Counted from the first letter of the stretch, positions 17,732-39,006 are shown. The stretch is 64,000 nt of DNA from an uncultured Flavobacteriaceae bacterium (GCA_943842625.1 CALTCK010000001.1:186001-250000); one strand, 5' to 3'. Numbers and translations: made by a program. Notes: generated by a model from the sequence alone, not told the origin.

Positions 17732-17763
17732 AAAAAAACCTAATTCATATGAATTAGGTTTTG
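17732..17763. terminator. Bidirectional terminator between usp and tRNA-Gln
   Basis: AACCTAATTC and GAATTAGGTT form a perfect 10-bp stem around a short ATAT loop, flanked by seven A on the left and four T on the right. It therefore serves tRNA-Gln on the minus strand best and also the usp gene on the plus strand. Confidence 0.85.
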
Positions 17764-17775
17764 ATATGATGTTTG

Positions 17776-17848
17776 TTGGCCCACTAGGGCTCGAACCTAG
17801 ACTCTTCTATACCAAAAACAGACGTGTTGCCAGTTACACCATGGGCCA
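17776..17848 (-). tRNA. tRNA-Gln (anticodon TTG)
   Basis: The minus strand folds as a 73-nt tRNA: acceptor TGGCCCA pairing with TGGGCCA plus discriminator A, a D arm with GGTGTAACTGGC, an anticodon stem TCTGT/ATAGA with loop TTTTGGT (anticodon TTG), and a T arm with GGTTCGAGCCC. CCA is not encoded. A well-formed promoter lies directly upstream and a terminator downstream. Confidence 0.95.
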
Positions 17849-17865
17849 TTACCTTAATGCGGATG

Positions 17866-17896
17866 CAAATTTAATACAAACTTTGGCTTGCACAAA
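17866..17896 (-). promoter_or_regulatory. Promoter of tRNA-Gln
   Basis: On the minus strand TTTG (17893-17896), an exact 19-bp spacer and TAAATTTG (17866-17873) match both elements of the Bacteroidota housekeeping promoter. The start site would fall about ten bases before the tRNA 5' end. One of the clearest promoters in the window. Confidence 0.8.
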
Positions 17897-18016
17897 TATT
17901 TTTTTAATAAATATTATATTTTTAGTATAAAATATATGAAGGTATTAATACGTTAACTTTTTTTTACTGAGCTTTTATTTTATTAGTAAATTCGCTGCAA
18001 ATAAAAATTATAATTT

Positions 18017-21271: not shown

Positions 21272-21341
21272 TAACACTTTTATTAACGCTTGCCGGACTC
21301 CAAAATGAATAATATCTAATGTATTATTCTAGAAAATTTAT

Positions 21342-21638
21342 TTAAACATATTCATTAACAAGACCAATTAACGTATTAGCGTCTTGCTCTCCGCTTTGGC
21401 GCCATTTCATTTCGCCTTGCTTGTAAATCATTAGAGTTGGTAATCCTTTAACACGCAGTGCTTTGGATAATTCTTCATTTTTTTCGACATCAATTTTTAT
21501 AACTCTGGCCTTATCACCTAAAGCAGCTGCAACATCTCTTAATACGGGATGCATTTCTTTAGATGCTTCGTCCCAGTCTGTATAAAAATCAAATAAGACA
21601 GGTACTTGGGTTTCAATTAATTCTCCAAATTTTGACAT
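21342..21638 (-). CDS. Thioredoxin-fold protein lacking the CxxC active site
   Basis: A 98-residue single-domain thioredoxin-like protein. The fold signatures are present: VPVLFDFYTDW, then RVIKIDVEKNEELSKALRVKGLPTLMIYKQGE with the cis-proline loop (GLPT). Where thioredoxins have WCGPCK, this one reads WDEASKEM; there is no cysteine anywhere in the protein. It therefore cannot do dithiol-disulfide exchange. A binding, chaperone-like or regulatory role is possible but not shown. Convergent with the DUF2723 gene. Confidence 0.85.
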   Translation of the reverse strand: MSKFGELIETQVPVLFDFYTDWDEASKEMHPVLRDVAAALGDKARVIKIDVEKNEELSKALRVKGLPTLMIYKQGEMKWRQSGEQDANTLIGLVNEYV

Positions 21639-21691
21639 AATTTCTTAGTATTGGTAAAAAACTGTTCTGCAAATATAGTGTTTTCAGGGAA

Positions 21692-22918: not shown

Positions 22919-23045
22919 TGAACGAATAATTATTTTTTTAAATATAATATGTTTTAGATAACATTTATAAAATTTAGCCAATCTTTAACTTATTGGATAA
23001 AAATTAAGAAAAGATTTAATGAACCAATAGTAGATTTTTTTTCTG

Positions 23046-23717
23046 CTAGGTGAGATTTATCTCAAAAATATTATTGATTTCTCCCATTTTTGAAGTTTCA
23101 TAAACAGATGTTAGTTTTAAGTTGTTTAATGATGCTATCGAAGTAATGATTTCGATTTGACAATCTTCTGAGAGAATCATATTTACCTGATTGTGGCTGG
23201 TTATGAAGTTGGGTAATTGATTAAATAGATTTTTAAAATATTCGAATTCTTCACCACAAAACCAGGCTTTTTCTTTTATGTTTTTTGCTTTTTTAGGGTA
23301 ATATGGCGGGTTGATTATAATTAAATCGAAGGATTTATTTTTTAAGTTTTTAAATAAATCGGAATCAATGACGTCTACTTTAAGCTGATTTTCAAAAGAG
23401 GCTTTTTTCAAATAATCTAATGCGATATTATTAATATCTGTTGCGGTAACAAAGGCTCCTTTTTTACTAGCTAAAAGTGAAATAATTCCAGAACCACAAC
23501 CCAACTCCAAAAAAGCTTTATTTTTTAAATCTAATTCAACTATATAATCTAGTAATATTTTGGTGCTTAAGGTTAGATGAGGAGGAAACACCTCTGGATG
23601 CACCAAAACTTCAATATCCTGATAGTTGTATTTTCGTGGTTTTCTATAATAGTAAGTTAAACCGGTTTTTAAAAATGGCTGTGTAATACGTTTTATAATG
23701 TTTCTTAACTTTGACAT
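23046..23717 (-). CDS. Class I SAM-dependent methyltransferase (HemK/RsmC-like)
   Basis: Methyltransferase of 223 residues. The SAM-binding motif I is FLELGCGSGIISLLA, motif II is VTATDINNIALDYL, and the catalytic-type motif IV is LIINPPYYP. NPPY is typical of enzymes that methylate planar nitrogens in RNA bases or glutamine side chains, so a nucleic-acid or protein substrate is as likely as a small molecule. The start codon overlaps the last base of the radical SAM gene upstream, so the two are translationally coupled and it is the last gene of that operon. Specific substrate not identified. Confidence 0.82.
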   Translation of the reverse strand: MSKLRNIIKRITQPFLKTGLTYYYRKPRKYNYQDIEVLVHPEVFPPHLTLSTKILLDYIVELDLKNKAFLELGCGSGIISLLASKKGAFVTATDINNIALDYLKKASFENQLKVDVIDSDLFKNLKNKSFDLIIINPPYYPKKAKNIKEKAWFCGEEFEYFKNLFNQLPNFITSHNQVNMILSEDCQIEIITSIASLNNLKLTSVYETSKMGEINNIFEINLT

Positions 23718-25238
23718 TATTCAGAGTAAAAGCCTTGAGTTTCAGGTTGACGATATTTCCAAATTTTATGCATGATTTTTATTTCATAAGGATATTTATA
23801 AAAACCCGTTATATATCGAATCTTAGAAACACCCCTTAACAAACTCCTCTTAAATCCTTTAATTCTAAAATCGGTAGCAGTTGGATAATAGCCATTTAAA
23901 ACTGTTTCAAAATTCATAATTCGATCTACCATTTTTGGAGTTAGCCAAGGCGTTAGTGGATTTTTTCTTAAATCAAAATTTTCCCAAGCTGGAGCTAACC
24001 AATCTTCAAGATTTTTGGGAAAACTAAAGCCCGCTTTTTGAATTTGTTCATACAACTCAGATCCCTCGGTAGCTACAGGACTATATAAGTAAATAATAAT
24101 TTCAGCATCAGGGTTAATTTCTTTAATTTCTTTTATAAAATTAATATCCCATTCTATTTGAGCCATCACTTTTTCGGGAGTTTCAGCAGGCATACCTAAT
24201 ACAAAAGAAAGTTCTGGGATGATACCAATTGGATATAACCTTTTTACAAACTCTTTGATGGTTTCCCCAGTTTGAGTTCCTCCTTTATTCATTTGTTTTA
24301 GGATTTCATCATTACCAGTTTCAGCTCCCAAAAAAATCATCTTACAACCAGCTTCTTTCATTAAAATTAAATCGGCATCACTGTATTTGTTTATAGTGTC
24401 AATTCTTCCTTCCCCCCACCAAGTGATCCCATCGTTTTTAATCAATTCAGAAAATTCGATGACTCTTTTCCTGGAAGTAAAGAAATTATTATCATGAAAC
24501 TCTATGGCTTCTATACGATAAGTATCCTTAAAATATTTTACATCTTTATAAACTGATTCTGCAGATTTTGCTTTCCAACGACCCTTATAAATAGGAACTA
24601 CGGCACAAAAAGAACAAGTGAAAGGACAGCCTAAACTAGAATGGTAACTAAAGGTATTTCTTCCCAAAAAAGTTTTACTTAAGTAGTTTTCTAAGTTGTA
24701 AAAACTATTTAAATGTTGATAAGGTAATTTCGGCAACGAATCCTGATCTAACAGTTCTTCTTTTGCTGTTTTTATGATTTCACCTTCTTCATTTTTGAAG
24801 ATCAAGGTTTTTTATAGTTGAAATTTCAGTATGATTATTATCCTCTAAAACCCTTATTAATGAAGGAAAAGCAATATCGCCAGGTCCATTTATAACATAA
24901 TCTACAAAACCAGACGAGATGGAAACCTGGTATTGGTTGGAAGCAAAATATCCACCCCAAATAGTAATACAATCTGGATATTTGTCCTTTATTTTTTTAG
25001 TAAAAGGAATGGCTTGTCTTAATTGAGGTCCGGGCATTACCGTACTACAGAAATATTTAAAATTTCCTGTTTTAAAATAAGAATCAATTTTCTCCCAAGG
25101 ATCATTTTCTAAATTTCCATCAACAAACACAAATTCGTAAATCCCATAAATAGAAGCTCCCACTTGTAAAATAGAATTTGGAATTCGATGTTTACCATTG
25201 GCACTTTTAGGGTTAAATATGAGAATTTGGTTATTCAT
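23717..25238 (-). pseudogene. B12-binding-type radical SAM protein, split by a one-base insertion
   Basis: Two ORFs together make one protein. The upstream piece (24789-25238) is an N-terminal B12-binding-like domain (NNQILIFNPKSANGKHRIP, then ITIWGGYFASNQ and GPGDIAFPSLI). The downstream piece (23717-24805, TTG in the track) holds the radical SAM core with cluster motif GCPFTCSFCAV, the GEGRID block and the MIFLGAETGNDEIL segment. The junction reads STIKNLD in one frame and LIFKNEEGE in the other; one extra base near 24803 separates them. Restored length would be about 506 residues. Such proteins methylate or rearrange unactivated carbons; substrate unknown. Either a real pseudogene or a sequence error. 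Confidence 0.8.
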
Positions 25239-25261
25239 TTAGAAAAAAATAGTTTAGCAAT

Positions 25262-26020
25262 TTAAAAATTATTTAATGATTTCTCTTTAAAAAAGTGATA
25301 AGCATTTTTGTATGCTTTACTTGCATTATCCAATAAATCATCATGAATAGTTATAGCTTTAGAATTGGTTTTAAATATTGTTCCTTTAGTTATATTTGAA
25401 GAAGGATCCCCCCATTTTTGAGTATACTTTTTTAGCTGGTATTCTTTTTTTAGAGGATTGTTTAAGTTTAGAAAAACTGATAAATTATTTAATACCTCAT
25501 CTGGTTTTTCTATTAATTCATCATAGTCAATAAAAAACCAATTGGAAGGTTTTAATAAGGATATAAAGTCTATTAGATAACTCAGCCTATCCATGTAAAT
25601 ACTAGTAACTGTTTCCTGGCTCATCGGCATATTTTTATTATTAGATAAGTTTATGATACTTGAGATTGTATCTTGAGGGTTTCGTATCAAAATGATATGT
25701 TTGTTGCTATTAGGAATAATAACATTTCTATTCGGAGTGACAGAGCCATGATTAACTTGATTTACAATATACTTGCATTTTTTAAATAATTGACGTGATT
25801 TTCTTCTTATGTCAAATTCAGATTTTATTAGGCTTTCAAAATTTTGATATTTAATAAAATATTCACCAAACCCAATAATTTTATTATGATCTGATAAAAC
25901 ATGCATTAATAAGGAACTGCCACTTCTTGGATGCCCCATGATAAATAGGAAACGTTGGCCTTTATCAGGTCTAAATGGTTTCCATATCTGAATTAGTATG
26001 TTTTTAATAAAATTTTTCAA
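25262..26020 (-). CDS. Sulfotransferase family protein
   Basis: PAPS-dependent sulfotransferase-like protein of 252 residues. The 5'-phosphosulfate loop is seen as FIMGHPRSGSSLLMHVLSDH (about residues 26-45) and the 3'-phosphate-binding segment as HIILIRNPQDTISSIINLSN. The acceptor is not predictable; in this setting a glycan, lipid or secondary metabolite is likely. It starts with TTG in a 4-base overlap with the flippase-like gene (TTGA), so the two are translationally coupled, and the radical SAM gene follows 23 bases later. Confidence 0.82.
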   Translation of the reverse strand: MKNFIKNILIQIWKPFRPDKGQRFLFIMGHPRSGSSLLMHVLSDHNKIIGFGEYFIKYQNFESLIKSEFDIRRKSRQLFKKCKYIVNQVNHGSVTPNRNVIIPNSNKHIILIRNPQDTISSIINLSNNKNMPMSQETVTSIYMDRLSYLIDFISLLKPSNWFFIDYDELIEKPDEVLNNLSVFLNLNNPLKKEYQLKKYTQKWGDPSSNITKGTIFKTNSKAITIHDDLLDNASKAYKNAYHFFKEKSLNNF

Positions 26021-27192
26021 TTCTTAGTTTTTTTTATCCAAAACCACAATAAAACAACAATAGCCCATTGTCCAAGAACTTTCAATAGTAGGGCTCCTGT
26101 TATATTCCAATATTTTATTAAAAAATATCCAGCGAATAATTGGAAGATTAAAATTAAAGAAGTGAAATAAGCTATTTTTATTTGGTGATTTTTTTTATAA
26201 TATTCATTTACCAATAGAATATTTAAAAATAAGGGAACTACAAATAAAAAAGCTAAGCCATACTGTAATTTTGAGAAGGTAAACCGATATAAGTAATTTA
26301 AAACAAGAAAAATTATTAATGTAGCAAAAAAAGCAAATCCCCAACCGTAAAAAAAGAATTTTTTTTGAATATCTTTTATTTTTTGGTTTTTAAACCGATA
26401 ATAATTTTTAAGATAGGGAGTAATAAAAAAGGCACTTGCCATTTGTGATAATGCTAAAAAACTAATTAACATTTGATATTTGCTGAGTAAGGTAAAGTTG
26501 AAAAATAAAGCTCCATAATAGGTATCTACTCTTGACCTTAATGTCCCTAAAGCAAGAGGAATAAAAAATGGTAAAGACTTTTTCAACTCTTTAAATTGAA
26601 AATTAACAGGAGTATTCTTAAAGTCTCCAATAAAAAAATACAAAAAAGTTAAAAACTTTACTGCAAGCGCGATTACAATTAGTTGTATTAAAATCTTTAA
26701 ATTTAACACCTCTATTTCTAGAATTACCATTAGTAAAAGAGTCACTAGAAAAAACGATTCGACTCCTATATTTAATTTGAATTTTCTGTTGAAAACTATC
26801 AATGATTTAAATGATTGATTCAAAAATTTTAATAGTACCAATAACAAAACATCAATCTCTATGTCCAAGAAGGCTGGAGTGAAAAATATTAAAATCCCAC
26901 TAGGAATCAATAAAAAACTTCTAACTAAAATATTATTAAGCCACTTCTGATTTACTTTTGATGGAAACTCGCTAAAAGTCTTCAGCAAATAATCATTATT
27001 CCCAAACGATAAGAAAAGTAAAAATAGGTTACTCCAAATTAATATTTCTGCGTATTCTCCCCATAATTCAACAGACTTAAATCTAACGATAACCAATGAT
27101 AAAAGAACAACAGATAAAATGCTTAAAATTTGACTTACACCAAAAAGTGAAATGACTTTAATCCTATGTTTTGCTTTTTTTAAGGGATTCAT
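26017..27192 (-). CDS. Oligosaccharide flippase-like membrane protein
   Basis: Polytopic membrane protein of 391 residues with about ten to twelve hydrophobic helices and very little soluble sequence. The N-terminus (ISLFGVSQILSILSVVLLSLVIVRF) and the pattern of paired helices resemble Wzx/RfbX-type flippases of the MOP superfamily that move lipid-linked glycans across the inner membrane. It is the first gene of a minus-strand operon that continues with a sulfotransferase, radical SAM protein and methyltransferase. Identification rests on topology and context, so the transported molecule is unknown. Confidence 0.65.
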   Translation of the reverse strand: MNPLKKAKHRIKVISLFGVSQILSILSVVLLSLVIVRFKSVELWGEYAEILIWSNLFLLFLSFGNNDYLLKTFSEFPSKVNQKWLNNILVRSFLLIPSGILIFFTPAFLDIEIDVLLLVLLKFLNQSFKSLIVFNRKFKLNIGVESFFLVTLLLMVILEIEVLNLKILIQLIVIALAVKFLTFLYFFIGDFKNTPVNFQFKELKKSLPFFIPLALGTLRSRVDTYYGALFFNFTLLSKYQMLISFLALSQMASAFFITPYLKNYYRFKNQKIKDIQKKFFFYGWGFAFFATLIIFLVLNYLYRFTFSKLQYGLAFLFVVPLFLNILLVNEYYKKNHQIKIAYFTSLILIFQLFAGYFLIKYWNITGALLLKVLGQWAIVVLLWFWIKKTKN

Positions 27193-27267
27193 TTAGTATT
27201 TGACTCGTTTTTTATGCTAATATGAGATAATATTTTAATTCTTGAATAATAAATAATAGTTTTGATT

Positions 27268-28869
27268 ATGTTTTCTAAAGTAATTGAAAAGTTTAATAAG
27301 TTTCCACTATTGTATTTAGGCCCACTATTTCTTGTGTTATTTTATTTTCTTTTTCAATCATTAACATATAACCTCCATGATTTTTCCAATAGCTATTTTT
27401 CCGCAAAATTAATTAGAGAATCACTTTCATCAAATCTTTTGTTTGATATTTATGAGTTCAATAGTTATATATGGAATTTAGGTTACACCAATGTATTGGT
27501 AGATTTTTATATAAATAGTCCTTTTACAATTACATTTTTTTATCCTTTTACTTTTATAGAAAACCCTTATATAGCCAAAGCAATTTATAATTTAATTTGT
27601 ATTGTTTTATTTAGTTTTAGTCTTTATTTACTTGTACGAGATAAGTTTAAAAAACGATATGAGATTTTATTTTTTTTACCCATCCTTTTTTTTGTTCCCA
27701 TTCGTAACGGAATATTATTTGGACAATCTTATTTTTTAATTTTTGCTTTAGTTGTATTTGGATTCTTATCCATTGAAAATAAAAAAGAAAAACTCGGAGT
27801 AAGCCTAATCAGCATTGCAGTTTTATTGAAGATATTCCCAGTTTTTTATGGAGTCGCATTATTGTTTTATAAAAATTGGAAAGCAATAATTGTTGGAATA
27901 ATCTCTTCACTTATTTTAATAAGTTTTTCAATATTTATTACAGGATTCCCTATTTGGGAGACTTACCTGTTAGAAATTTTACCAAATGCAATACAAAATA
28001 ATAGCACTGTTGACTATCGTTACAATGCACAGTCTATGGATGTTTTTTTTAAGACTCTATTTGTTGAAGACTCATATTATAATCCAGATGCATTATTTAA
28101 TAATGAGCAAGTTTACATTTTATTAAAGTGGTTATTTAAATCGAGTGTGATTGCTTTGACTGTTGGACTTAGTTTTAAAAACAAAAAAAACTTTTTAAGA
28201 CTTTTATCTTTTTGGGTGGTTGCCTTGTTTTTATTACAAAGTAGGACAGCTACCTATGCACAGATTTTGTGGATCATACCAATGATTTGTTTATTAAATC
28301 AAAAAATATCGAACAAAAAAAAAATAGTTTCTCTCCTATTTATTCTAATCATATGTAATATTCCAGTTTATCAACTCGAACCATTACCGATATTTTTTAA
28401 ATTTTTAAGATTATGGTTTACTATTTTATTAAGCTTTTTATTTTTTAGTAGCTTTTCAATTAAACCAGATTATAAATGGTTTATCTTCGTTTTGATTGTT
28501 TTATTACCGCTTCATATAGAGATGTTTAAAGAAACTAAAAAAAGTATATCTACCTATGTTTTAAAAGAAAAAAAATATTTTTTGATTTATGATTATTTTG
28601 AAAACGAAGGGTCTCTATATGTAAAAACTCTAGGGAAAAAAGGAAACCAAACTATTAATTTAAACATACCGATTTCTTCATTTAATGAAAATATTTCAGA
28701 AGTAGTTGGTAATCAAATAAAATTTGGAGACCAGCTTATTTTAGAAGATTATTCTTTAAAGAAAAAGCCAGTTTTAGTCAATAATAAAGAATTATATTAC
28801 TTAACCGATCATCATTCTAGAAGAGGGGCTTTTACCCTAAAAAAAATTAACATTGAAGCAATTCATTAA
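27268..28869 (+). CDS. GT87-like (DUF2029) membrane glycosyltransferase
   Basis: Membrane protein of about 533 residues with roughly ten helices in the first 400 residues and a soluble C-terminal tail. Features such as FSNSYFSAKLIRES near the start, PYIAKAIYNL and GISSLILISFSIFITGFPIW fit the polyprenyl-phosphate-sugar glycosyltransferases of the GT-C fold (DUF2029/GT87), which add sugars on the periplasmic side. The track begins at a TTG; the ATG six bases later (27268) is preferred. It is divergent from the flippase-like gene and coupled to the next gene by a 17-base overlap. The exact family is uncertain. Confidence 0.62.
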   Translation: MFSKVIEKFNKFPLLYLGPLFLVLFYFLFQSLTYNLHDFSNSYFSAKLIRESLSSNLLFDIYEFNSYIWNLGYTNVLVDFYINSPFTITFFYPFTFIENPYIAKAIYNLICIVLFSFSLYLLVRDKFKKRYEILFFLPILFFVPIRNGILFGQSYFLIFALVVFGFLSIENKKEKLGVSLISIAVLLKIFPVFYGVALLFYKNWKAIIVGIISSLILISFSIFITGFPIWETYLLEILPNAIQNNSTVDYRYNAQSMDVFFKTLFVEDSYYNPDALFNNEQVYILLKWLFKSSVIALTVGLSFKNKKNFLRLLSFWVVALFLLQSRTATYAQILWIIPMICLLNQKISNKKKIVSLLFILIICNIPVYQLEPLPIFFKFLRLWFTILLSFLFFSSFSIKPDYKWFIFVLIVLLPLHIEMFKETKKSISTYVLKEKKYFLIYDYFENEGSLYVKTLGKKGNQTINLNIPISSFNENISEVVGNQIKFGDQLILEDYSLKKKPVLVNNKELYYLTDHHSRRGAFTLKKINIEAIH

Positions 28870-29683
28870 ATACTACATAAAAGATTCAATATTATTAGGG
28901 CTAGAAAAAATAAAATTGTTTCTATTCCCTAGAAAGAAACCAATTCTTGTATTCACGATGGCCAAGGTAGGATCTTTAAGTGTTTACTTTTCATTAAAAA
29001 AAAGACTCTTTAAAAATGCGCTATTTCACGTTCATTCTCTCAATGAAATAGAAATTAAAAAAGGGATTCGACTATGCTTTCAAAACAGGGTATATCCGGG
29101 CAGTAAAACACCTGTTTTTCTAATCAATAAGAAAATTATCAATCAAAAACGACCTTTTAAAATAGTATGCTTATTTAGGGATCCATTGGAAAGAAATATT
29201 TCAGCTTTTTTTGATGCATTTAAATTATACACAGGTACAAAACCTAATGATTATAATGGTAGTTCAAAAAAACTAAAAGAATATTATGACGAAAACCTTA
29301 ATCATGAATTCCCTTTAAATTGGTTTGATGATCAATTTTTTGACGCAACGAACATTAATATTTATGATTATAAATTTGATAAAGAACAAGGATATTCTAT
29401 TCTTAAAACCGGTACGATTGAACTCCTCTTAATCAATAGTGATTTAAATGACTCCATAAAAGAAAATCTAATAAAAGATTTTTGTAATTTAAAATCATTC
29501 AAACTTAAAAACAGAAATTTATCATCTTCAAAAGAATATGCTTTGTTGAATAGTGATTTTAAAAAGCAAACAAAGTTTTCTAAAGACTATTTAGATTTAT
29601 TATATCATTCAAAATATGCAAGACATTTTTTTACCGAAAAGTATATTATGAACCAAAAAGAAAAATGGAGTACCCAACGTTAA
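28853..29683 (+). CDS. Capsular polysaccharide synthesis / sulfotransferase-like protein
   Basis: A 276-residue protein whose N-terminus reads KPILVFTMAKVGSLSVYFSLKK followed by ALFHVHSL, the pattern of the putative capsular polysaccharide synthesis family that is distantly related to sulfotransferases (the loop binds a nucleotide phosphate). A second typical block is KIVCLFRDPLERNISAFFDAF, equivalent to the 3'-phosphate-binding segment. It starts at a TTG inside the end of the GT87-like gene, so translation is coupled, and ends convergent with the GT2 gene with 4 bases of overlap. A sulfotransferase acting on a surface glycan is a reasonable inference. Confidence 0.68.
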   Translation: MKQFIKYYIKDSILLGLEKIKLFLFPRKKPILVFTMAKVGSLSVYFSLKKRLFKNALFHVHSLNEIEIKKGIRLCFQNRVYPGSKTPVFLINKKIINQKRPFKIVCLFRDPLERNISAFFDAFKLYTGTKPNDYNGSSKKLKEYYDENLNHEFPLNWFDDQFFDATNINIYDYKFDKEQGYSILKTGTIELLLINSDLNDSIKENLIKDFCNLKSFKLKNRNLSSSKEYALLNSDFKKQTKFSKDYLDLLYHSKYARHFFTEKYIMNQKEKWSTQR

Positions 29684-30420
29684 CTTTTAAACAAACTAAA
29701 TCGAAATCCCATTTTCTGTAAAAAATATTTTATAGAAACAATTAAAACACCCAAACCATATTTTACACTTCTCGAGAAATTAATTGAAGAAGAATCTTTT
29801 TCATAATTAGCCGGGCAGGAAATTTCGCCAATTTCGATTCCGTGATAACAAATTTGAGCCAAAAGTTGATTGTCAAAAATAAAGTCGTCAGAATTAGTCT
29901 GAAAAGGAATATTTTTTAATAGTTCCGCATAAAAGCATCGGTATCCTGTGTGGTATTCTGATAGTTTTTGTCCCATTAATAAGTTTTGAATGAATGTTAA
30001 AGTTCTGTTAGAAAGATATTTATAAACAGGCATTCCACCTTTTAATGCACTTTTTCCTAAAATTCTAGATCCCAGTACAACTTTAAAAACTCCACTAGCA
30101 ATTAAAGAACACATAGCAGGTATTAATTTTGGATCGTATTGATAATCTGGATGTAGCATCACGATAATATCGGCATCTAGCTCTAACGCTTTTTGATAGC
30201 AAGACTTTTGATTGGCTCCATAACCCAAATTGTCTTTATGTTCTATAATATGCTGAATCCCTAATTTTTTGGCTATTGAAACAGTATGGTCCCCGCTAAA
30301 ATCATCTGTTAAAATTATGTCGTCAACAATATCAAACGGAATTTCACTAAATGTTTTTTCAAGAGTTTTTTCAGCATTATAGGCTGGAAGTATGACTATT
30401 ATTTTCTTTTTATTAATCAT
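29680..30420 (-). CDS. Family 2 glycosyltransferase (polyprenyl-phosphate sugar synthase-like)
   Basis: GT-A-fold glycosyltransferase of 246 residues. The N-terminal nucleotide-sugar binding region reads IVILPAYNAEKTLEKTFSEIP, followed by DDIILTDDFSGDHTVSIA and GYGANQKSCYQKALE; a DxD-like element lies in ADIIVMLHPDYQYDP. The absence of long membrane helices in the N-terminal part and the overall pattern match enzymes that load mannose or glucose onto dolichyl/polyprenyl phosphate. The product could be the donor for the GT87-like and DUF2723 GT-C enzymes of this window. Last gene of the operon that starts with the nucleotidyltransferase-fold gene; one base separates it from the lipoprotein gene. 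Confidence 0.88.
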   Translation of the reverse strand: MINKKKIIVILPAYNAEKTLEKTFSEIPFDIVDDIILTDDFSGDHTVSIAKKLGIQHIIEHKDNLGYGANQKSCYQKALELDADIIVMLHPDYQYDPKLIPAMCSLIASGVFKVVLGSRILGKSALKGGMPVYKYLSNRTLTFIQNLLMGQKLSEYHTGYRCFYAELLKNIPFQTNSDDFIFDNQLLAQICYHGIEIGEISCPANYEKDSSSINFSRSVKYGLGVLIVSIKYFLQKMGFRFSLFKS

Positions 30421-30421
30421 T

Positions 30422-31537
30422 TTAATTCAAATAATTAACTTCTCTATTTGACTTTTCCCGAACACTACTTGAAACTGGTAATCCTGAAAAAGGAGCATAT
30501 TGATCAATCTCTTCTCTAAAATAAAGATCCCCGAGAAAAGGGAATTCATCATAATTGTGTGTTGGAATTCCGTCTAATAAATTTTCAATTTCATTGATAT
30601 TAATACTCCATTCTATACTTAAGCGCTTTGCAGATGGCTCCATAAAAGATATGTAAAGTAATTCTGTTTGTATATGCTGTAAAGATTTCTGAAAATCAAC
30701 TCCATCTACTAAAGAATTTTGTAAATTTCTATGTGTTACTTTAAAATCTACCAGTAAATCTTTAAAGTCTAAATAGGGGATAAACCCATCATAATTATCT
30801 TGTATATTAAATAATGGTTGAATTTCAGATTCGTGACACCAAATACATTTAGCAGGTTTTCCTGCATTGCTATGTTGAGGATCGGAGTTTGAAATTCGAA
30901 AACCATCTTTGTTGTAAATACCAAATCTAACTTGACCATTTTGCATTAAATCAAGGGTTTCGTACTCTAAAATCTCTTCAGACTCCGGACTAATTTCTGA
31001 GCATAAAAACAACTGGTTAAAACCATCTTGTTCAGAAAATCTAATAATTCGATTTTCATACGAAACACTAGAATTATTAACATAACCGCCCAGGTTCTTG
31101 AGTTCATAAGAGGTTGATAAATCGGAAAGTAAAAACGGGACCCCTGTTATTTCATAATAATGTTCAGAAGAACCTATTAATAGACTTACATACCTCCCCA
31201 GATCAATAGCTGAAGTAATTTGATATTCTTCAGTTGCTTTAATAACAGTATTTAGTCGCTTGAGTTTTTTTAACGCATCGACATTAAAACCTAATTTATT
31301 TATTTTTAAAATTATAAATGGATTTTGATTTTTAATACCGTTTTCAGTAATTGGGAGTGTAGCTCCAAGATAAGACAGGCACCATTGCAAACCAATAATT
31401 GCGTTACTTATGGTGTCTTGCTCGTAACTCTTGTTCCATTTAAGTGTTAGCGAAAAATCCTCCTCTACAATATCATTGTAGGTTGAATTGGTACACGAAG
31501 TCAATAAAATTAATATTATAATTACGGTCTTTTTCAT
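30422..31537 (-). CDS. Lipoprotein of unknown function with one CxxCH heme-type motif
   Basis: I do not recognise the family. The 371-residue protein begins MKKTVIIILILLTSC, a lipoprotein signal with acylated Cys15. A single c-type heme motif, KCIWCHESE, occurs at residues 231-235 (plus-strand bases 30833-30847) after a Gly/Pro loop (SNAGKPAK), typical of cytochrome c heme sites. The rest looks like a mixed alpha-beta domain with no clear similarity. It shares one base with the radical SAM gene upstream (TAATG arrangement) and precedes the GT2 gene by one base, so it is firmly part of this operon. A heme-bearing periplasmic or outer-membrane lipoprotein is the inference. Confidence 0.8.
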   Translation of the reverse strand: MKKTVIIILILLTSCTNSTYNDIVEEDFSLTLKWNKSYEQDTISNAIIGLQWCLSYLGATLPITENGIKNQNPFIILKINKLGFNVDALKKLKRLNTVIKATEEYQITSAIDLGRYVSLLIGSSEHYYEITGVPFLLSDLSTSYELKNLGGYVNNSSVSYENRIIRFSEQDGFNQLFLCSEISPESEEILEYETLDLMQNGQVRFGIYNKDGFRISNSDPQHSNAGKPAKCIWCHESEIQPLFNIQDNYDGFIPYLDFKDLLVDFKVTHRNLQNSLVDGVDFQKSLQHIQTELLYISFMEPSAKRLSIEWSININEIENLLDGIPTHNYDEFPFLGDLYFREEIDQYAPFSGLPVSSSVREKSNREVNYLN

Positions 31538-32922
31538 TATTTACTTACCATCATTAAGCTACCAGCTAACCATGACTTTATTTTTAATTTGGCAGCCTTA
31601 TAATAGCTTTTGTTTTTACCCTTTATTAGTTCTTTATGATAATTAACTTCATTCACTACTTTTCTGATAGCATAATCATAATACTTTCTTGAATATGTTC
31701 TTTTAAAATCAATATCTCTGTCTGTTGAGGTTTCCCAGGCAGGCTGTTTTGTTATCTTATCTTCAATATCTGAATATAAGGAAGTCCCTTTTATTGGGTA
31801 AGCCAACGTAATGGTAAAGTATTTTGGATTGGCTTCTTTAAGATAGTCAATGGTTTTATAAATATCGTCTTCAGTCTCGTTAGGGTATCCAAGCATGATA
31901 AAGGTTCCTGACTCAATTCCTTTTTTGTTTGTTTCTCTAATGGCATTTTTCACAGTACTAACATCTACCCTACGATCCATAGCATCTATAATTTTTTGAG
32001 AACCGCTTTCGGCTCCAATCCAAATACGATAACAGCCTGTTTGTTTTAATTGTTCAAGAACTTTATCATTTAATCTTTCAGCTCTTGTGATACATTCAAA
32101 AGGGATCAAAACCTTTTGTTTAGTTACTTCATTACAAAATTCTTCCATCCATTTATGACTGACCGTAAAAACATCGTCAACAAACCAGATGGAGTCAGGA
32201 TTGTATTGCTTTTGAAGCATACGCATCTCTTCCACCACTAATTTAGCAGGTCTTCTTCTGTAACTTTGTCCGTATACAGCAGTGCTACACCATTTACAGG
32301 TATAAGGGCATCCTCTTTGAGTGCTAATAGTCATAGAACTTTTACCATGATTAGTTTTCCAAGTATCTAAATATTTTTGAATATTAATCCCTTCTCTGTT
32401 GGGAAGAGGAAGTTGACTGAGATCTTTAATTTTTATTCTTGGCGGTGTTTTTATTACCGAATTATTTTCTTTATAAGCAATTCCAGTAATAAAACTATAA
32501 TCCGAATTCTCTTGAATAGACTGGTATAACTCAGCTATGGTTTGTTCCCCCTCTCCAATAATTAAAAAATGAGCTCCGGTATCTAAATAATTTTGAATAT
32601 TAAAGGTCACATCGGGACCCCCTAAAATTATTTTTGGAAATCCATATTTAGGATCAGCTATCAATAATTTAATCAACTTAATGACCGTTATTTTAGTCAT
32701 TAAATTGGTATAGATTGCAACTACAAATGGTTTTTCCCGGGCTATAAATTCTAATTGAGTTTCCTGATTTGAAAAGGTGGAATCGAATACGAGATTTTTA
32801 ATTTTTTCTTGATTTAAATAACTTGATAGGTACAATAAACCAAGAGGAGCGTATGGCTTCATTATACTTGCCTCCTTTGGATCTTTGTTTAGATAATAAC
32901 CATGTGTTAAAACAATACTCAT
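31537..32922 (-). CDS. B12-binding domain radical SAM protein
   Basis: Radical SAM enzyme with an N-terminal B12-binding-type Rossmann domain (YAPLGLLYLSSYLNQEK, KIILGGPDVTFN, GEGEQTIAELY) and a radical SAM core from about residue 195. The cluster motif is RGCPYTCKWCST (CxxxCxxC). Further SAM-binding features are DSIWFVDDVFTV, RIWIGAESGSQKIIDAMDR and GTFIMLGYPNE. Proteins of this class usually methylate inert carbons or form C-C bonds on lipids, glycans or antibiotics. The ORF track begins at a TTG; the ATG at 32922 (MSIVLTHGYY) comes just after the methyltransferase stop and fits better. Paralogous to the protein two genes upstream. Confidence 0.88.
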   Translation of the reverse strand: MSIVLTHGYYLNKDPKEASIMKPYAPLGLLYLSSYLNQEKIKNLVFDSTFSNQETQLEFIAREKPFVVAIYTNLMTKITVIKLIKLLIADPKYGFPKIILGGPDVTFNIQNYLDTGAHFLIIGEGEQTIAELYQSIQENSDYSFITGIAYKENNSVIKTPPRIKIKDLSQLPLPNREGINIQKYLDTWKTNHGKSSMTISTQRGCPYTCKWCSTAVYGQSYRRRPAKLVVEEMRMLQKQYNPDSIWFVDDVFTVSHKWMEEFCNEVTKQKVLIPFECITRAERLNDKVLEQLKQTGCYRIWIGAESGSQKIIDAMDRRVDVSTVKNAIRETNKKGIESGTFIMLGYPNETEDDIYKTIDYLKEANPKYFTITLAYPIKGTSLYSDIEDKITKQPAWETSTDRDIDFKRTYSRKYYDYAIRKVVNEVNYHKELIKGKNKSYYKAAKLKIKSWLAGSLMMVSK

Positions 32923-32926
32923 TTGA

Positions 32927-33712
32927 TTATTTTTTTTGAAGTACAATTAAGTAATGATCCGATAAATTTGCCCACATACGATGATTTAATAATTTTTCTT
33001 TCCACTTTAGGATCTCAAAAAGTATTTTTTTATTTTTAAAAAAAGGATTTAAATAAGAAGGTGGGATCGCAATTCCAATTGGATTTAAAGATACTATTTT
33101 ATATTGCTCAGATAGCAAATTGACTAGTTCTTGATAATTATAATACCACGTAGGAATTTGTATGCCATCAACATTAGTTACTAAGGCTTTATTTGTGTTT
33201 CTTCTTTTCATGTTTTTAAAATCCCCTTTAAGAAAAAAATAAAGCTGTTCCCAAATACAATGCTTAGGCATAATAACAAGAGCTAACATCCCTTGAGATT
33301 TTAGAATTGATTTTGAATTATTCAGAAATTCTTTTAGGTCTTGTTTTGATAAACAATTTAATCCTCCAAAATTAGAAAAAAGTAAATCAAACTTTTCTTT
33401 AAAAGTTTCTGTGTGGATAGTTTGGATATCCAATTGCTTAAAAATTAAATTTGATTGATCGTACTTCTTTTTTGCAATTTCGACCATTTTAGAGGAAATA
33501 TCAGAAGCAATAACAAAATGATCCTTTTTAGCCAACCAATTGGCATCAATTCCGGTACCGCAATTAATTTCAAGCACCCGTAAGTTTTTTTTCTTCTTTT
33601 CAAGTTGTTTATTTAAAAAATAGTGAACACGTTCCCGTTGCGCTTTTCCAATTAATGAATTGGAGAAATACGCATCGTAATTTATTGCGTGATGATCAAA
33701 ATTAGCTTTCAT
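32927..33712 (-). CDS. Class I SAM-dependent methyltransferase
   Basis: Methyltransferase of 261 residues with motif I LRVLEINCGTGIDANWLA, motif II VIASDISSKMVEIAKKK and a motif IV region FDLLFSNFGGLNCL. The start MKANFDHHAINYDAYFSNS resembles enzymes that methylate small molecules or lipids (UbiE/BioC-like start). It overlaps the upstream radical SAM gene by eleven bases and lies between the two paralogous radical SAM genes, so it probably acts on the same product. Substrate not predictable. Confidence 0.85.
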   Translation of the reverse strand: MKANFDHHAINYDAYFSNSLIGKAQRERVHYFLNKQLEKKKKNLRVLEINCGTGIDANWLAKKDHFVIASDISSKMVEIAKKKYDQSNLIFKQLDIQTIHTETFKEKFDLLFSNFGGLNCLSKQDLKEFLNNSKSILKSQGMLALVIMPKHCIWEQLYFFLKGDFKNMKRRNTNKALVTNVDGIQIPTWYYNYQELVNLLSEQYKIVSLNPIGIAIPPSYLNPFFKNKKILFEILKWKEKLLNHRMWANLSDHYLIVLQKK

Positions 33713-35168
33713 GGGTATGTTTCATTTTATCCAATATTATTTTATCCAATAAAGAGGACGGAGCATAATAAAAATATAAAAGAAGCGAACGTACTTTATC
33801 TTTTGAAATTGAAAAAGGATTTTTGAGAAGTTGATGAAAGTTAAAAATCGCCTGACTTTTTCTATATTCTTTATGAACATATCGGTGTAGTTTTTTATAA
33901 AATCTTGAATTAAAAGTTCCTTGAAACATCATCGCTAAATCGTCAGAATCTTTCCAGTTTGATTTAAATTTTAGATCATCTTTAACCATTTCATAGAACT
34001 TAGTTCCCGGCAATGGGTAGGATACAGAAACTCCAATATTATCTGGTTGCAGTTCTTTAATCATTTCAATTGTTTTGGAAATATCATCTTTAGTTTCGTT
34101 CAAATAACCAAATTGAATAAAGAAGGCCACTTTGATTTTTTTTAATTTTAATAACTGAGTCGCTTTATAAATTTGATTTAATTGTGTGCCTTTATCCATT
34201 GCATCCAATATTTTTTGAGAACCGCTTTCAGCTCCTACCCAAACCTCTTTTAAACCACTTTCTGCCAATGCATCTATAGTATCTTCTTTCAGTAATAAAT
34301 CAACTCGACTTTGTATTGTGTATGCTATTTTTAATTCTGCTTCTTTTAATACGGTATTAAAATTTTGAACCCATTTGGGTTTTAACCCAAAAATATCGTC
34401 ACACATCCAAAAATTAGTAACGCTGTAATTTTCTTTCAGGGTAGCGATTAATTTGGTAATATATTCTGGTGAATGTGAATTGTAACGAACACCATAAATA
34501 GGTTTCGCACACCAATTGCATTTATAGGGGCATCCTCTTGTGGTTGCAATATTTAAAGTGAAATTTTTTCCGCTTTTAGCCCATACCGATTTGTATGCAT
34601 TAATATCAATTAAATCCCAAGCAGGCATGGGCAGTTCATCTAAATTTTTTAAAACTTCCCTTTTTGGATTGATCGTATAATCAAGGTCATTCTTATATAC
34701 GATTCCTTTTAACAAATCGATTTGCTCGTTGTTTCCTAGTTTAAGCACCAATTCTTTTAACGAAATTTCTCCTTCACCCAATAGGACATAATCAGCTCCT
34801 TTGTTCAAATATTTTTTATAGTGATCTGTACTGTCTGAGCTATTTACAATTACGGTACAGTTGTACTTTTTTCCGATGGCAATCATTTCAAAAGCAGCCT
34901 CTCGCATATTGGTAAGACACATTTTTGTTAAATAATTAAATCCATCATCATAAATAACTAAAAAAGAGGGCTTTTGATCCTGAATTTCTTTTTCAATTTC
35001 AAAGGGATTGTCTCTTAAGTTAGTATCAAAAAGGGAGACTGAAAAACCACTCTTCCTTAATAATGATGCAGCGTATATGGTTCCTAAAGGAGGATAAGGA
35101 GTTTTATTATTCCATTGTTTTTGATCCAACGGATAATAGTAGGAATGTGAAAAAAGAATATCAAGCAT
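33702..35168 (-). CDS. B12-binding domain radical SAM protein
   Basis: Second complete radical SAM enzyme of the locus, 488 residues. N-terminal B12-type domain: PYPPLGTIYAASLLRKSGF, VIVNSSDSTDHYKKYLNKG and LLGEGEISLKELV. Radical SAM core: TRGCPYKCNWCAKPIYG with CxxxCxxC, then NFWMCDDIFGLKPKW and KEVWVGAESGSQKILDAMDK. The two complete proteins share the same order of blocks and long similar segments, indicating tandem duplication with later divergence. Start codon overlaps the nucleotidyltransferase-fold gene by eight bases. No canonical DxHxxG B12 motif is visible in the N-terminal domain, so cobalamin binding is inferred from the family, not shown. Confidence 0.88.
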   Translation of the reverse strand: MLDILFSHSYYYPLDQKQWNNKTPYPPLGTIYAASLLRKSGFSVSLFDTNLRDNPFEIEKEIQDQKPSFLVIYDDGFNYLTKMCLTNMREAAFEMIAIGKKYNCTVIVNSSDSTDHYKKYLNKGADYVLLGEGEISLKELVLKLGNNEQIDLLKGIVYKNDLDYTINPKREVLKNLDELPMPAWDLIDINAYKSVWAKSGKNFTLNIATTRGCPYKCNWCAKPIYGVRYNSHSPEYITKLIATLKENYSVTNFWMCDDIFGLKPKWVQNFNTVLKEAELKIAYTIQSRVDLLLKEDTIDALAESGLKEVWVGAESGSQKILDAMDKGTQLNQIYKATQLLKLKKIKVAFFIQFGYLNETKDDISKTIEMIKELQPDNIGVSVSYPLPGTKFYEMVKDDLKFKSNWKDSDDLAMMFQGTFNSRFYKKLHRYVHKEYRKSQAIFNFHQLLKNPFSISKDKVRSLLLYFYYAPSSLLDKIILDKMKHTHES

Positions 35169-36069
35169 TTTCTTTAGCGATGTGAATATTATGTTTTTCT
35201 CTTAATTCGTCGTACCTATTGTTTAGGCGATCAATTACTTTTCGTTGAAAATTTAAAGGATGATGTTTCGATATATTTTTTGTGGACTTCATCGCCACGT
35301 TAAATTGCCTTTCTTCTAAATGATTAAATTTAATTTTCCATTTATGGTATGTTATTCTTAAAAAAGCAGCGTCAAGCCAATCTCCTATTTTCGAATCTAA
35401 AAAATATTCAGTAATTTTTGTGACCGTTGGTTTCTTGACCAAATTTAGTTTTGATAAGCCTTCTGTAACAGTTTTATTTGGCAAATAATTTTCTACCCAT
35501 TTATTTTTTTCGTAAAATTTATGGAAACTACCGTTACCGAACATAGGGAGTAACGTTGTTAACTCGGTTGCGGTAAATATATTTTTTTCTTCAATCTCTA
35601 GCGCATTGGAGCTGATAAAATAATTAACACAGAAATACTTTCTAGAATTTAATAAAAATATTTTTTTATAGAGAATTAGGAAGGTTCTAGCAATCCATAA
35701 TCGCTTTGGGCTGGTTATAATAAAAAAATCAATATCTCCATCGTCATCATAATAACCCTTGGATAAAGAGCCTGAAATCCCCACACCCTCTACATAAGGA
35801 AATTTAGAAATTAATCGAGAAACAGTTAAGGCTTTTTGGTATATATTTTTAGCCATTTTATTTCCTTCAAGCCTTCTTTTAATTAGTGTTTCATTATTTT
35901 CCGTTAAGTAAAAGTCATCAATTTTATAAATTATATCATCGTTTACCAACTCCATTAAATCTAATTTAATTTGCTCTTTTGATTCTGCTTTGGAAAAAAT
36001 AAATATCTCTTCTTCGGTTAAAGGATACTTAAAGAGCGAAAAGTATAATATGGGTTTTAATAAAGTCAA
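35161..36069 (-). CDS. Nucleotidyltransferase-fold protein
   Basis: Protein of 302 residues. Residues 1-60 look like a small winged-helix segment (LFKYPLTEEEIFIFSKAES, LVNDDIIYKIDDFYLTE). A polymerase-beta-type nucleotidyltransferase motif follows: GVGISGSLSKGYYDDDGDIDFFIIT (GS-x8-DxD type with the catalytic acidic pair). The C-terminal part is helical and Lys-rich. Such proteins may activate sugars or lipids, or modify RNA or protein; no substrate can be assigned. Start is TTG, with no in-frame ATG close by. It is the first gene of the operon running to the GT2 gene. Confidence 0.7.
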   Translation of the reverse strand: MTLLKPILYFSLFKYPLTEEEIFIFSKAESKEQIKLDLMELVNDDIIYKIDDFYLTENNETLIKRRLEGNKMAKNIYQKALTVSRLISKFPYVEGVGISGSLSKGYYDDDGDIDFFIITSPKRLWIARTFLILYKKIFLLNSRKYFCVNYFISSNALEIEEKNIFTATELTTLLPMFGNGSFHKFYEKNKWVENYLPNKTVTEGLSKLNLVKKPTVTKITEYFLDSKIGDWLDAAFLRITYHKWKIKFNHLEERQFNVAMKSTKNISKHHPLNFQRKVIDRLNNRYDELREKHNIHIAKENA

Positions 36070-36168
36070 TTTTTTTATTTAAAAATATTAAATTAAATCT
36101 AATTTTTACAACCGTAATAATAATAATTAATGCTTTAATTAATTTCACCCGTAAACGTGAATAATTTT

Positions 36169-39006
36169 TTAATGGGCCTCCAACCAATTATCGCCTGTCC
36201 CTAAATCTACATCTAAGTTTACAGATAGCTTAAAGGCATTTTCCATTTCAAATTTTATGAGTGATTTAAGTTTTTCTAATTCAGGTTTAAAAACATCAAA
36301 AACCAATTCATCGTGGACTTGAAGTAACATTTTGCTTTTATAATTTTCTGCATTTAGTTTCTGTTGAATATGAATCATTGCAATTTTAATAATATCTGCA
36401 GCACTCCCTTGTATGGGGGCGTTAATAGCGTTCCGTTCGGCAGCACCTCGGACAATTGCATTTGATGCATTGATAGCATTTAAATACCTACGCCTATTTA
36501 AAACAGTTTGAACATATCCATTCTCACGAGCAAAATCAACTTGTTTACTCATAAAACTTTTAAGTTTTGGATACGACGTATAATAAGTTTCAATTAACTC
36601 TTTGGCTTCTGAACGAGATAAATCTGTTTGATTACTTAATCCAAATGCCGACACTCCGTAAATAATTCCAAAATTGACTGTTTTCGCATTGCTTCGTTGT
36701 TCTTTACTTACTTCGTTTAAGTCAACATTAAACACTCTTGCAGCCGTGGATGCGTGAATATCTTCTCCCTGAGCGAAGGCTTCAATCATGTTGTTTTCCT
36801 CGCTTAAAGCTGCTATAATCCTTAATTCTATTTGAGAGTAATCAGCTGCAAGTAATACATAATCCTTGTTTTTTGGAATAAAAGCTTTTCTAACTTGTCT
36901 TCCTCTTTCTGTTCGAATGGGGATATTTTGTAGATTAGGATTATTACTACTTAATCTTCCAGTTGCTGCGACTGTCTGCATGTAATCGGTATGTACTCTT
37001 CCTGTTGTTGGTTCTACTTGCATAGGTAAGGTATCTATATAAGTACTTTTTAGTTTGGCGAGTCCCCGATACTTAAGAATATATTTTACAATTTCATGCT
37101 CTTTTGCTAGGTAAGAGAGAACATCTTCAGCGGTAGAGTATTGTCCTGTTTTAGTTTTTTTTGGTTTATCAACTAATTTCATTTTTTCAAAAAGAACAAT
37201 TCCTAATTGTTTTGGGGAAGCTATATTAAACTCCTCGCCTGCTAATTCATAAATTTTTGAAACCAGTAGAGCGATATCTTTATCTAAATCTTTTGCCAAT
37301 TCATTTAAAAAGGGGACATCTAAATTAATTCCCTCTAATTCCATTTCTGCCAAAACACGAAGTAAAGGAATTTCAATTTCATCAAATAGTTTTTGTGTTT
37401 TTGCTTCCTTTAATTCTTTTTCAAAATGTTTTTTTAATTGAAGGGTAATATCTGCATCTTCAACAGCGTATTCAGTAATTTTTTCCAAGGAAATATCTCG
37501 CATAGAAAGTTGATTTTTTCCTTTTTTACCAATGAGTTCAACTATTGAAATTGGTGTATAATTTAAATAGGTTTCGGCTAGTACTTCCATGTTGTGCCTC
37601 ATATCTGGATTGATTAGGTAATGGGCTAGCATGGTGTCGAATAATTTTCCTTGAACAGATATATTGTATTTTGATAAGACTTTAATATCGTATTTTAAAT
37701 TCTGTCCTATTTTCTGAATCGATTCGTCTTCAAAGAAAGGTCTAAGTGTTTCTATTAAATCTTGTGCCTCGCTACGATTCTCTGGAAAAGAAAGATAAAA
37801 TCCTTTTCCTACTTCCCAAGAAAACGCGATACCAACCAATTCTGCTGTAATTGGATTCAGCCCTGTAGTTTCAGTATCAAAACATACCGATTTTTGTTTC
37901 AATAAATTTTGAATAAATAATTTCGTTCCCATACCTGGTTGAACGGTCTGATAAAAATGCTCGGTATTGACTATACTTTTTCTAGTAGTGTCAAGTGTGT
38001 TTTCCGTGGGTTCTCCGTCACCTCCAAAAAGAGAAAATTGTCCGTGACCCGCCGAAGATGGCTCGCTTTTTTTTATTGAAGATTTAACCTCCTTAGTAAT
38101 TTGCTCATTTACTGTTGAAACTGTTTTAGTAAATGTTTTAGTGAAATTATCGATTAACCGTCTAAACTCCAGCTCTTGAAAAAGAGCTGTTACAGCTTTC
38201 ATATTTGGTTGAGACATTTCAAAATTTTGTTCATGAAACTCAACGGGGACATCCAACATAATAGTTGCTAATTGTTTAGATAGAACTCCTAAGCTTTTGT
38301 TTTCCTCGATTTTTTCTTTCATTTTACCCTTAAGTTCCTGGGTGTTTTCTAATAGCCCCTCCATGCTTCCATAAGCAGCAAGAAATTTTTTAGCGGTTTT
38401 GTCTCCAACACCCGGTAATCCAGGAATATTGTCAGCGGTATCACCTACCATACCTAAATAATCGATAACCTGCTCTGGACGTTCAATATCAAATTTTTTC
38501 TGTACCTCAGGGATTCCCCATGTTTCATAACCACCTCCAAACATTGGACGATACATAAATATGTTGTCAGAAACTAATTGCGCAAAATCTTTGTCAGGAG
38601 TTACCATAAAGGTTTTATAACCTTCTTTTTCTGCCTTTTTAGCGAGTGTTCCAATGACATCATCAGCTTCAAAGCCTTCCTTTACCATAATCGGGATATG
38701 CATGGCCTTTAGAATATCATAAATATAAGGAACAGCAACTTTAATAGCATCTGGAGTTTCGTCTCTATTAGCTTTATAAGCCGGATAAGCTTCAACTCTT
38801 GCTTTACTTCCTCCTTTATCAAAACAAACTGCCAAATGATCCGGGCGTTCCCTTTTTATTACATCTAAAAGAGAGTTCATAAAACCCATAATGGCAGAGG
38901 TATCAACACCTTTCGAGTTGATTCTTGGATTTTTAATAAAGGCATAATAACCTCTAAAAATCAGCGCGAAGGCATCAACAAGAAATAGGCGTTTTTGATC
39001 AGACAT
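36169..39006 (-). CDS. polA: DNA polymerase I
   Basis: Repair and Okazaki-fragment processing polymerase, 945 residues, with all three domains. Residues 1-300: 5'-3' nuclease (LFLVDAFALIFRGYYAF, GFEADDVIGTLA, TPDKDFAQLV, GLPGVGDKTAKKFL). Around 360-545: 3'-5' exonuclease with intact acidic motifs CFDTETTGLNP, IGQNLKYDIKVL and YAVEDADITLQ, so proofreading is probably active. C-terminal polymerase: LAADYSQIELRIIAA (motif A), RSNAKTVNFGIIYGVSAFG (motif B) and LQVHDELVFDV (motif C). Monocistronic, divergent from the GH92 gene. Confidence 0.98.
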   Translation of the reverse strand: MSDQKRLFLVDAFALIFRGYYAFIKNPRINSKGVDTSAIMGFMNSLLDVIKRERPDHLAVCFDKGGSKARVEAYPAYKANRDETPDAIKVAVPYIYDILKAMHIPIMVKEGFEADDVIGTLAKKAEKEGYKTFMVTPDKDFAQLVSDNIFMYRPMFGGGYETWGIPEVQKKFDIERPEQVIDYLGMVGDTADNIPGLPGVGDKTAKKFLAAYGSMEGLLENTQELKGKMKEKIEENKSLGVLSKQLATIMLDVPVEFHEQNFEMSQPNMKAVTALFQELEFRRLIDNFTKTFTKTVSTVNEQITKEVKSSIKKSEPSSAGHGQFSLFGGDGEPTENTLDTTRKSIVNTEHFYQTVQPGMGTKLFIQNLLKQKSVCFDTETTGLNPITAELVGIAFSWEVGKGFYLSFPENRSEAQDLIETLRPFFEDESIQKIGQNLKYDIKVLSKYNISVQGKLFDTMLAHYLINPDMRHNMEVLAETYLNYTPISIVELIGKKGKNQLSMRDISLEKITEYAVEDADITLQLKKHFEKELKEAKTQKLFDEIEIPLLRVLAEMELEGINLDVPFLNELAKDLDKDIALLVSKIYELAGEEFNIASPKQLGIVLFEKMKLVDKPKKTKTGQYSTAEDVLSYLAKEHEIVKYILKYRGLAKLKSTYIDTLPMQVEPTTGRVHTDYMQTVAATGRLSSNNPNLQNIPIRTERGRQVRKAFIPKNKDYVLLAADYSQIELRIIAALSEENNMIEAFAQGEDIHASTAARVFNVDLNEVSKEQRSNAKTVNFGIIYGVSAFGLSNQTDLSRSEAKELIETYYTSYPKLKSFMSKQVDFARENGYVQTVLNRRRYLNAINASNAIVRGAAERNAINAPIQGSAADIIKIAMIHIQQKLNAENYKSKMLLQVHDELVFDVFKPELEKLKSLIKFEMENAFKLSVNLDVDLGTGDNWLEAH

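Follow-up and report, generated by a model that had tools for sequence, protein, structure and literature searches.

What kind of product is made by a 13-kb locus in which three B12-type radical S-adenosylmethionine (SAM) proteins stand beside sulfotransferase-like, glycosyltransferase and flippase-like genes? The locus occupies positions 23046-36069 of a stretch of 64,000 nucleotides from an uncultured Flavobacteriaceae bacterium (GCA_943842625.1 CALTCK010000001.1:186001-250000; this whole stretch is the window), and is flanked by a metallophosphoesterase gene (21692-22981) and polA (36169-39006). An initial annotation, made from the sequence alone, had listed its genes, each of which was found again where it had been placed, and had suggested that the set was a pathway with no named counterpart. 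Indeed, no named pathway with the same gene set was matched in the libraries used, and no description of the system was found in the PMC open-access literature searched. The present analysis indicates that the locus is probably a polymorphic island that specifies a decorated surface molecule linked to a lipid; it would work in the manner of O-antigen loci, with an undescribed B12-radical-SAM core as its basis.

Is the locus a unit at all? Its genes were followed in 400 Flavobacteriaceae species and in 396 genomes of the phylum Bacteroidota, and 91 loci were compared. The synteny check that the initial annotation had called for shows that the unit recurs, far beyond chance, in about 90 other loci. 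In about 90 loci the core order is kept: a nucleotidyltransferase (NTP), a radical SAM protein (rA), a methyltransferase (MT1) and a second radical SAM protein (rB) form the front, and a third radical SAM protein (rC), mostly followed by a second methyltransferase (MT2), forms the back, with a variable middle between them. MT1 is present in 89/91 loci, and MT2 was seen only in loci carrying rC. Within the family, co-occurrence is nested: NTP was detected in 27 of the 400 species (about 7%), rC in 20, all of them among these 27, and the predicted lipoprotein lipoC in 11, all of them among the 20 with rC (hypergeometric, 3e-28 for rC within NTP and 2e-16 for lipoC within rC, with kinship between genomes ignored). 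What had been read as a single 13-kb pathway is thus a syntenic unit, although one composed of a conserved core and an exchangeable middle rather than of a fixed set of genes.

Strong matches to rA were found in 14 of the 18 other genomes of the genus, and at least 555 stretches were confirmed in GTDB contigs; among the 80 best are sequences from Kordia, Aquimarina, Flavobacterium, Winogradskyella, Tenacibaculum, Polaribacter, Lacinutrix and Aureisphaera. In the phylum sample NTP was detected in 29 of the 396 genomes, and the order NTP-rA-MT1 recurs in other Bacteroidota classes, often accompanied by rC, a GT4 glycosyltransferase or an ATP-binding cassette (ABC) exporter. In some of these other Bacteroidota (L160, L162, L165, L167, L170, L173 and L174) the gene next to rC encodes an amidohydrolase (u4), in most cases together with a methyltransferase (u6); the amidohydrolase may represent an additional module of the pathway.

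Transporters of modelled families were counted among the genes between NTP and rC in the 35 loci (32 distinct genomes) in which both of these genes were visible. Exactly one was found in 35/35 islands, a flippase-like protein in 26 and an ABC protein in nine, and no island contained both or neither (Fisher 1e-8, or 1e-7 without duplicates, uncorrected for kinship). In a count over loci that was not confined to the genes between NTP and rC, three contained both types and four neither. The three have the flippase alone between NTP and rC, and the four belong to other Bacteroidota, outside the 35-locus count; two of them (L160 and L162) hold in this slot an O-unit flippase-like family, one member of which matches the corresponding NCBIfam model over its full length, below the cut-off. 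For the ABC form, the highest-scoring models are MsbA and PglK, with scores far under both cut-offs (202 vs 602 and 196 vs 1000 bits). It is mainly from this exchange with an ABC exporter that we infer a flippase role for the window protein.

A direct case of cassette exchange is provided by the sister metagenome-assembled genome (MAG) G001. In blastn comparison, positions 14609-25238 and 30402-37560 of the window are 96.7% and 99.0% identical to it at the DNA level, and the 5.2 kb between them are replaced in G001 by 2.1 kb carrying a flippase and a different sulfotransferase. Inside this exchanged middle only the flippase aligns, with 67.8% DNA identity; the two flippases are 60% identical. 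Across islands, the GT2, GT87, NKWYS, sulfotransferase and flippase-type slots were found to vary, and the middle repertoire includes sulfotransferases, FkbM methyltransferases, GT4, GT2 and PMT-type GT-C glycosyltransferases, polysaccharide deacetylase, GNAT, GDSL and AlgX-like proteins, a carbamoyltransferase and a 2-oxoglutarate oxygenase. Some of these genes move together: lipoC, GT2 and GT87 co-vary (GT2 with GT87, Fisher p 1.3e-5), and lipoC and the methyltransferase MT9 were found together in 0/59 loci having either. A minimal island, that of Aureisphaera galaxeae, has nine genes. A second island copy was observed on a short contig of the window's own assembly (G000:C15:1-19241, L048). 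Its identity is 95.9% across 13.8 kb and 89.7% across the neighbouring part of the GH92 gene, and its presence is probably due to strain mixture in the MAG.

The radical SAM genes and the accessory genes also differ in divergence, slow in the former and fast in the latter. The mean pairwise distances of rA (about 0.3), rB (0.28) and rC (0.23), with a range of 0.23-0.31, are near that of polA (0.27), those of NTP and MT1 take a middle place (0.45-0.51), and lipoC, GT87, the flippase-like protein, the ABC protein and GT4 reach 0.51-0.69. In loci beside polA, the divergence of rA and rC follows that of polA with r of 0.82 and 0.93, respectively, which suggests that the core was inherited with repeated loss, joint transfer with polA being the alternative; horizontal spread was for this reason rejected as the main explanation of the core. 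The island often adjoins polA, and often instead a gene group with a YceI-like protein. At this alternative site (L062-L066, L084, L089, L119 and others) the group is conserved and combines the YceI-like protein with a predicted outer-membrane protein and a small lipoprotein that has a CxxCH motif (clusters c11, c13-c15). A contig titled Bifidobacterium breve (CALPIE020000027.1, L113) was found to carry this Flavobacteriaceae island, adjoined by a polA from the same cluster, and its record is probably mislabelled.

Table 1. Genes and exchanged segment of the locus, with positions in the window.
Feature	Position	Strand	Evidence
NTP, core gene 1: MNT/ANT-type nucleotidyltransferase, N-terminal winged-helix-like part	35161-36069	-	PF01909 21.6 bits vs cut-off 21
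rA, core gene 2: B12-type radical SAM protein	33702-35168	-	PF04055 7e-18; PF02310 29.7 bits, cut-off 32.1
MT1, core gene 3: class I SAM-dependent methyltransferase	32927-33712	-	PF13649 5e-16
rB, core gene 4: B12-type radical SAM protein	31537-32946	-	PF04055 1.5e-21; PF02310 38.8 bits, above cut-off
lipoC, accessory: predicted lipoprotein, invariant CxxCHE motif	30422-31537	-	motif; no Pfam or NCBIfam match
GT2, variable middle: polyprenyl-phosphate-sugar synthase-like	29680-30420	-	PF00535 2.8e-15
NKWYS protein, variable middle: probably sulfotransferase-like	28853-29683	+	PF10364 6.9e-23
GT87 (GT-C) glycosyltransferase, variable middle	27262-28869	+	PF09594 1.5e-21; about 9 hydrophobic segments
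Flippase-like membrane protein, transporter slot	26017-27192	-	exchange with ABC exporter; weak full-length profile match to Polysacc_synt-like family
Sulfotransferase, variable middle	25262-26020	-	PF13469 2.5e-15; PF00685 7.7e-11
rC, core gene 5, B12-binding half	24789-25238	-	PF02310 21 bits, below cut-off; frame broken near 24803
rC, core gene 5, radical SAM half	23717-24805	-	PF04055 1.3e-16
MT2, core gene 6: HemK/PrmC-like methyltransferase, NPPY motif	23046-23717	-	PF05175 2.9e-17
Exchanged cassette	25239-30401		2.1-kb stretch (flippase + sulfotransferase) in its place in sister MAG G001

What chemistry might the core perform? The CxxxCxxC cluster motif is present in 89/89 rA and 76/76 rB sequences, and C203, C207 and C210 of rC are invariant in 14. 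The B12-binding domain PF02310 was scored above its cut-off in rB and below it in rA and rC (Table 1), and models of B12-type radical SAM proteins align across both domains of all three. Although BchE, HpnJ, PhpK and AprD4-like proteins are the subfamilies that they resemble, rA, rB and rC remain far below every NCBIfam cut-off for such enzymes (BchE, HpnJ, PhpK, AprD4, ApyD and others); the best score against a named subfamily, that of rB against BchE, is 156 bits for a cut-off of 481, and rC likewise stays under the cut-offs. The three proteins therefore constitute unnamed subfamilies. Besides methylases, the superfamily contains ring-contracting and rearranging enzymes (PMC8992657). Because the subfamilies resembled do not all methylate, C-methylation is one option among several. 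A fourth B12-type radical SAM family, rD, was observed in some islands (L039:1724-3175, L043:7612-9027 and L067:16123-17550) and often co-occurs with a GDSL hydrolase.

The rC gene is split in the window. Alignment with G001 showed that its two frames are one gene, broken by one extra T, and the frame is intact in relatives (about 505-535 amino acids, with about 70% identity among the intact proteins). The rA gene is intact in the window and broken in G001 by a different 1-bp frameshift (L038:3450-3670). Since two sister MAGs carry different 1-bp frameshifts, the breaks most likely stem from errors in sequencing or assembly, with genuine decay and loss of function as the alternative. Of the gene overlaps that had been read as translational coupling, the 17-base one at 24789-24805 was accordingly rejected as a product of the extra T, while that between GT87 and the NKWYS gene (28853-28869) stands.

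The other assignments of the initial annotation fared differently. The three B12-type radical SAM proteins, the third being the split one, and the two methyltransferases, GT2 and the GT-C protein, all recognised by Pfam, were confirmed. The best NCBIfam matches of GT2 are AglJ and PpgS-type proteins, below the cut-offs. MT2 has the NPPY motif, typical of HemK-like N-methyltransferases, in 14/14 sequences. The nucleotidyltransferase fold of NTP is plausible: PF01909 is barely above its cut-off, and the AlphaFold2 model (pLDDT 88) is nearest to MntA (7bxo, prob 0.99, E 7e-3), AadA and ANT in the PDB, all with weak E-values. Residues G100, D112 and D114 are invariant in the 17 NTP sequences aligned, and the strict pattern GS[LM]SKG...GD[IV]D[FY] is matched by 24/91. 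One of the two proteins called sulfotransferase-like (25262-26020) has a Pfam sulfotransferase domain (57.8 vs cut-off 27 bits). In the other, the NKWYS protein, only PF10364 is above its cut-off; it has conserved motifs like those of a 3'-phosphoadenosine 5'-phosphosulfate (PAPS) site, including a P-loop (TMAKVGS ... FRDPxERNxSAF), and a homologue matches PF00685 (Sulfotransfer_1) weakly (E 0.009). With profile support this weak, its designation as a proven sulfotransferase was dropped. An adenosine 5'-phosphosulfate kinase in the host genome is consistent with PAPS supply for sulfation. As for the supposed heme-type lipoprotein, the CxxCHE motif is invariant in 30/30 members of the lipoC family and ResB is encoded in the host genome, but the confident lipoC model (pLDDT 89.7) has no fold match in the PDB (best E 0.022, prob 0.08), and no cytochrome fold was found.

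On the reading favoured here, the six-gene core (NTP, rA, MT1, rB, rC and MT2) would build an unusual scaffold at the cytoplasmic face of the membrane, NTP probably activating or tagging a hydroxyl, the radical SAM enzymes probably methylating or rearranging carbon centres, and the core methyltransferases probably adding O- or N-methyl groups. Onto this scaffold the exchangeable middle genes would place sulfate, sugars or methyl, acetyl or carbamoyl groups, and a single dedicated transporter, either a flippase or an MsbA/PglK-like ABC protein, would flip the product for presumed surface display. In islands with GT2 and GT87, GT2 would make a polyprenyl-phosphate sugar that GT87 would attach after flipping, and lipoC would act in the periplasm or at the outer membrane. 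Of the C-methylated, sulfated glycoconjugate or lipid first proposed, what is retained is machinery that looks suited to a decorated, often sulfated product linked to a lipid; C-methylation is no more than a possibility, and the term glycoconjugate applies only where glycosyltransferases are present. A bolder proposal is put forward tentatively, as something we doubt more than we believe: the core may define an unknown class of lipid-linked scaffold, assembled when the three B12-dependent radical SAM enzymes work on an intermediate that has been nucleotidylated; this scaffold would serve as a shared anchor for sulfate, sugar, carbamoyl and methyl decorations swapped between strains, in the manner of an O-antigen lacking the usual backbone machinery.

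Several points weigh against a lipid-linked surface molecule. Its lipid anchor is putative, as are any substrates of the radical SAM proteins. The flippase-like protein, with its approximately nine hydrophobic segments, and its relatives gave no Pfam or NCBIfam match and no meaningful PDB match; a weak full-length profile match links it to a family that itself matches Polysacc_synt marginally. The count of one transporter per island holds for modelled families. Among the scanned genes of Flavobacteriaceae islands, which include most but not all accessory genes, none was recognised as a polymerase, a ligase or an initiating phosphoglycosyltransferase; the only Wzy_C and Bac_transf matches lay close to the core in L165 and L166, both from other Bacteroidota. 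Finally, two islands, those of A. galaxeae and G001, contain no recognisable glycosyltransferase, and a glycan is thus not invariant; for the same reason, it is probably the core that makes whatever part of the product is constant.

B12-type radical SAM enzymes and aminoglycoside-type nucleotidyltransferases are typical of specialised-metabolite pathways, and the core could instead make a small soluble compound (aminoglycoside-, cyclitol- or nucleoside-like) released by a drug-type exporter. The resemblance of the NTP model to AadA and ANT, the matches of rA to the AprD4 and OxsB sequences in the PDB and the patchy distribution (about 7%) would fit such a cluster, as would the precedent of fosfomycin Fom3, which uses a cytidylylated substrate, so that a nucleotide handle precedes B12-dependent methylation (PMC8158854). 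This explanation is nonetheless considered rather unlikely, given that the ABC partners are nearest to MsbA and PglK, that two islands from other Bacteroidota have an O-unit flippase-like protein as their transporter, and that core divergence tracks polA where both adjoin. GT87 and PMT-type GT-C enzymes, moreover, take lipid-linked donors.

The remaining explanations carry far less weight. By analogy with HpnJ, HpnR and HpnP, the locus might modify a polycyclic membrane lipid such as a hopanoid: the best scores of rC are to HpnJ or BchE, and HpnJ converts an amino sugar bound to a lipid into a cyclitol ether (PMC12583986). However, the HpnJ score is 110.7 bits for a cut-off of 577.6, and the squalene-hopene cyclase N-domain PF13249 was not found in the host's own assembly, which is about 84% complete, making this origin quite improbable. 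A locus for ribosomally synthesised and post-translationally modified peptides, suggested by below-cut-off matches to ApyD and rSAM_ocin_1, members of groups that modify peptides, is judged highly improbable in view of a saccharide-type accessory repertoire and of the lack of a conserved precursor-sized gene in the neighbourhood tables, whose cut-off of 80 amino acids misses shorter precursors. A chance gathering of unrelated neighbours in a hypervariable region would account for the highly variable middle and its low GC content (about 25% vs 32-35%), but is contradicted by the nested co-occurrence, the one-transporter rule and the order kept across genera and families, and deserves hardly any credence.

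If the island does specify a lipid-linked surface molecule, about 7% of the sampled Flavobacteriaceae, together with other Bacteroidota, would make a variable envelope molecule with a new and probably B12-dependent core chemistry, cultured carriers being found in Kordia, Aquimarina, Flavobacterium and Winogradskyella. B12 supply would be tied to the cell surface of marine bacteria, new B12-radical-SAM reactions would await characterisation, and recombination-driven surface variation could be relevant to phage and host interactions. The minimal island of A. galaxeae makes the system directly testable.

Which known systems come closest? Like O-antigen and capsule (Wzx-type) loci, the island has conserved ends, between which transferases of glycosyl, sulfo, methyl and acyl type are exchanged, a single flippase (the Wzx identity of the flippase-like form being only putative) and recombination between close relatives. 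Unlike them, its core combines NTP and two methyltransferases with three B12-type radical SAM proteins, the glycosyltransferases are optional, and no polymerase, ligase or initiating sugar-phosphate transferase was recognised among the genes scanned. The flippases PglK and MsbA, for lipid-linked oligosaccharide and lipid, are the best-scoring relatives of the ABC slot form, which nevertheless lies far below their cut-offs and is replaced by the flippase-like protein in most islands. Moenomycin, unlike the proposed island product, is a secreted Streptomyces antibiotic. Its phosphoglycolipid pathway (PMC3814723) includes the B12-type radical SAM methylase MoeK5 (PMC8992657), which is the point of likeness. 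In hopanoid HpnIJK, a glycosyltransferase and a deacetylase act first, and a radical SAM protein then works on the lipid-linked amino sugar (PMC12583986). The present host differs in having no squalene-hopene cyclase match in its incomplete genome, and the HpnJ cut-off was not reached. Fosfomycin biosynthesis is a phosphonate pathway, and its nucleotidyltransferase has another fold than NTP. Even so, in Fom1/Fom3 the substrate is nucleotidylated ahead of B12-dependent C-methylation (PMC8158854), which offers a possible model for the pairing of NTP and rA.

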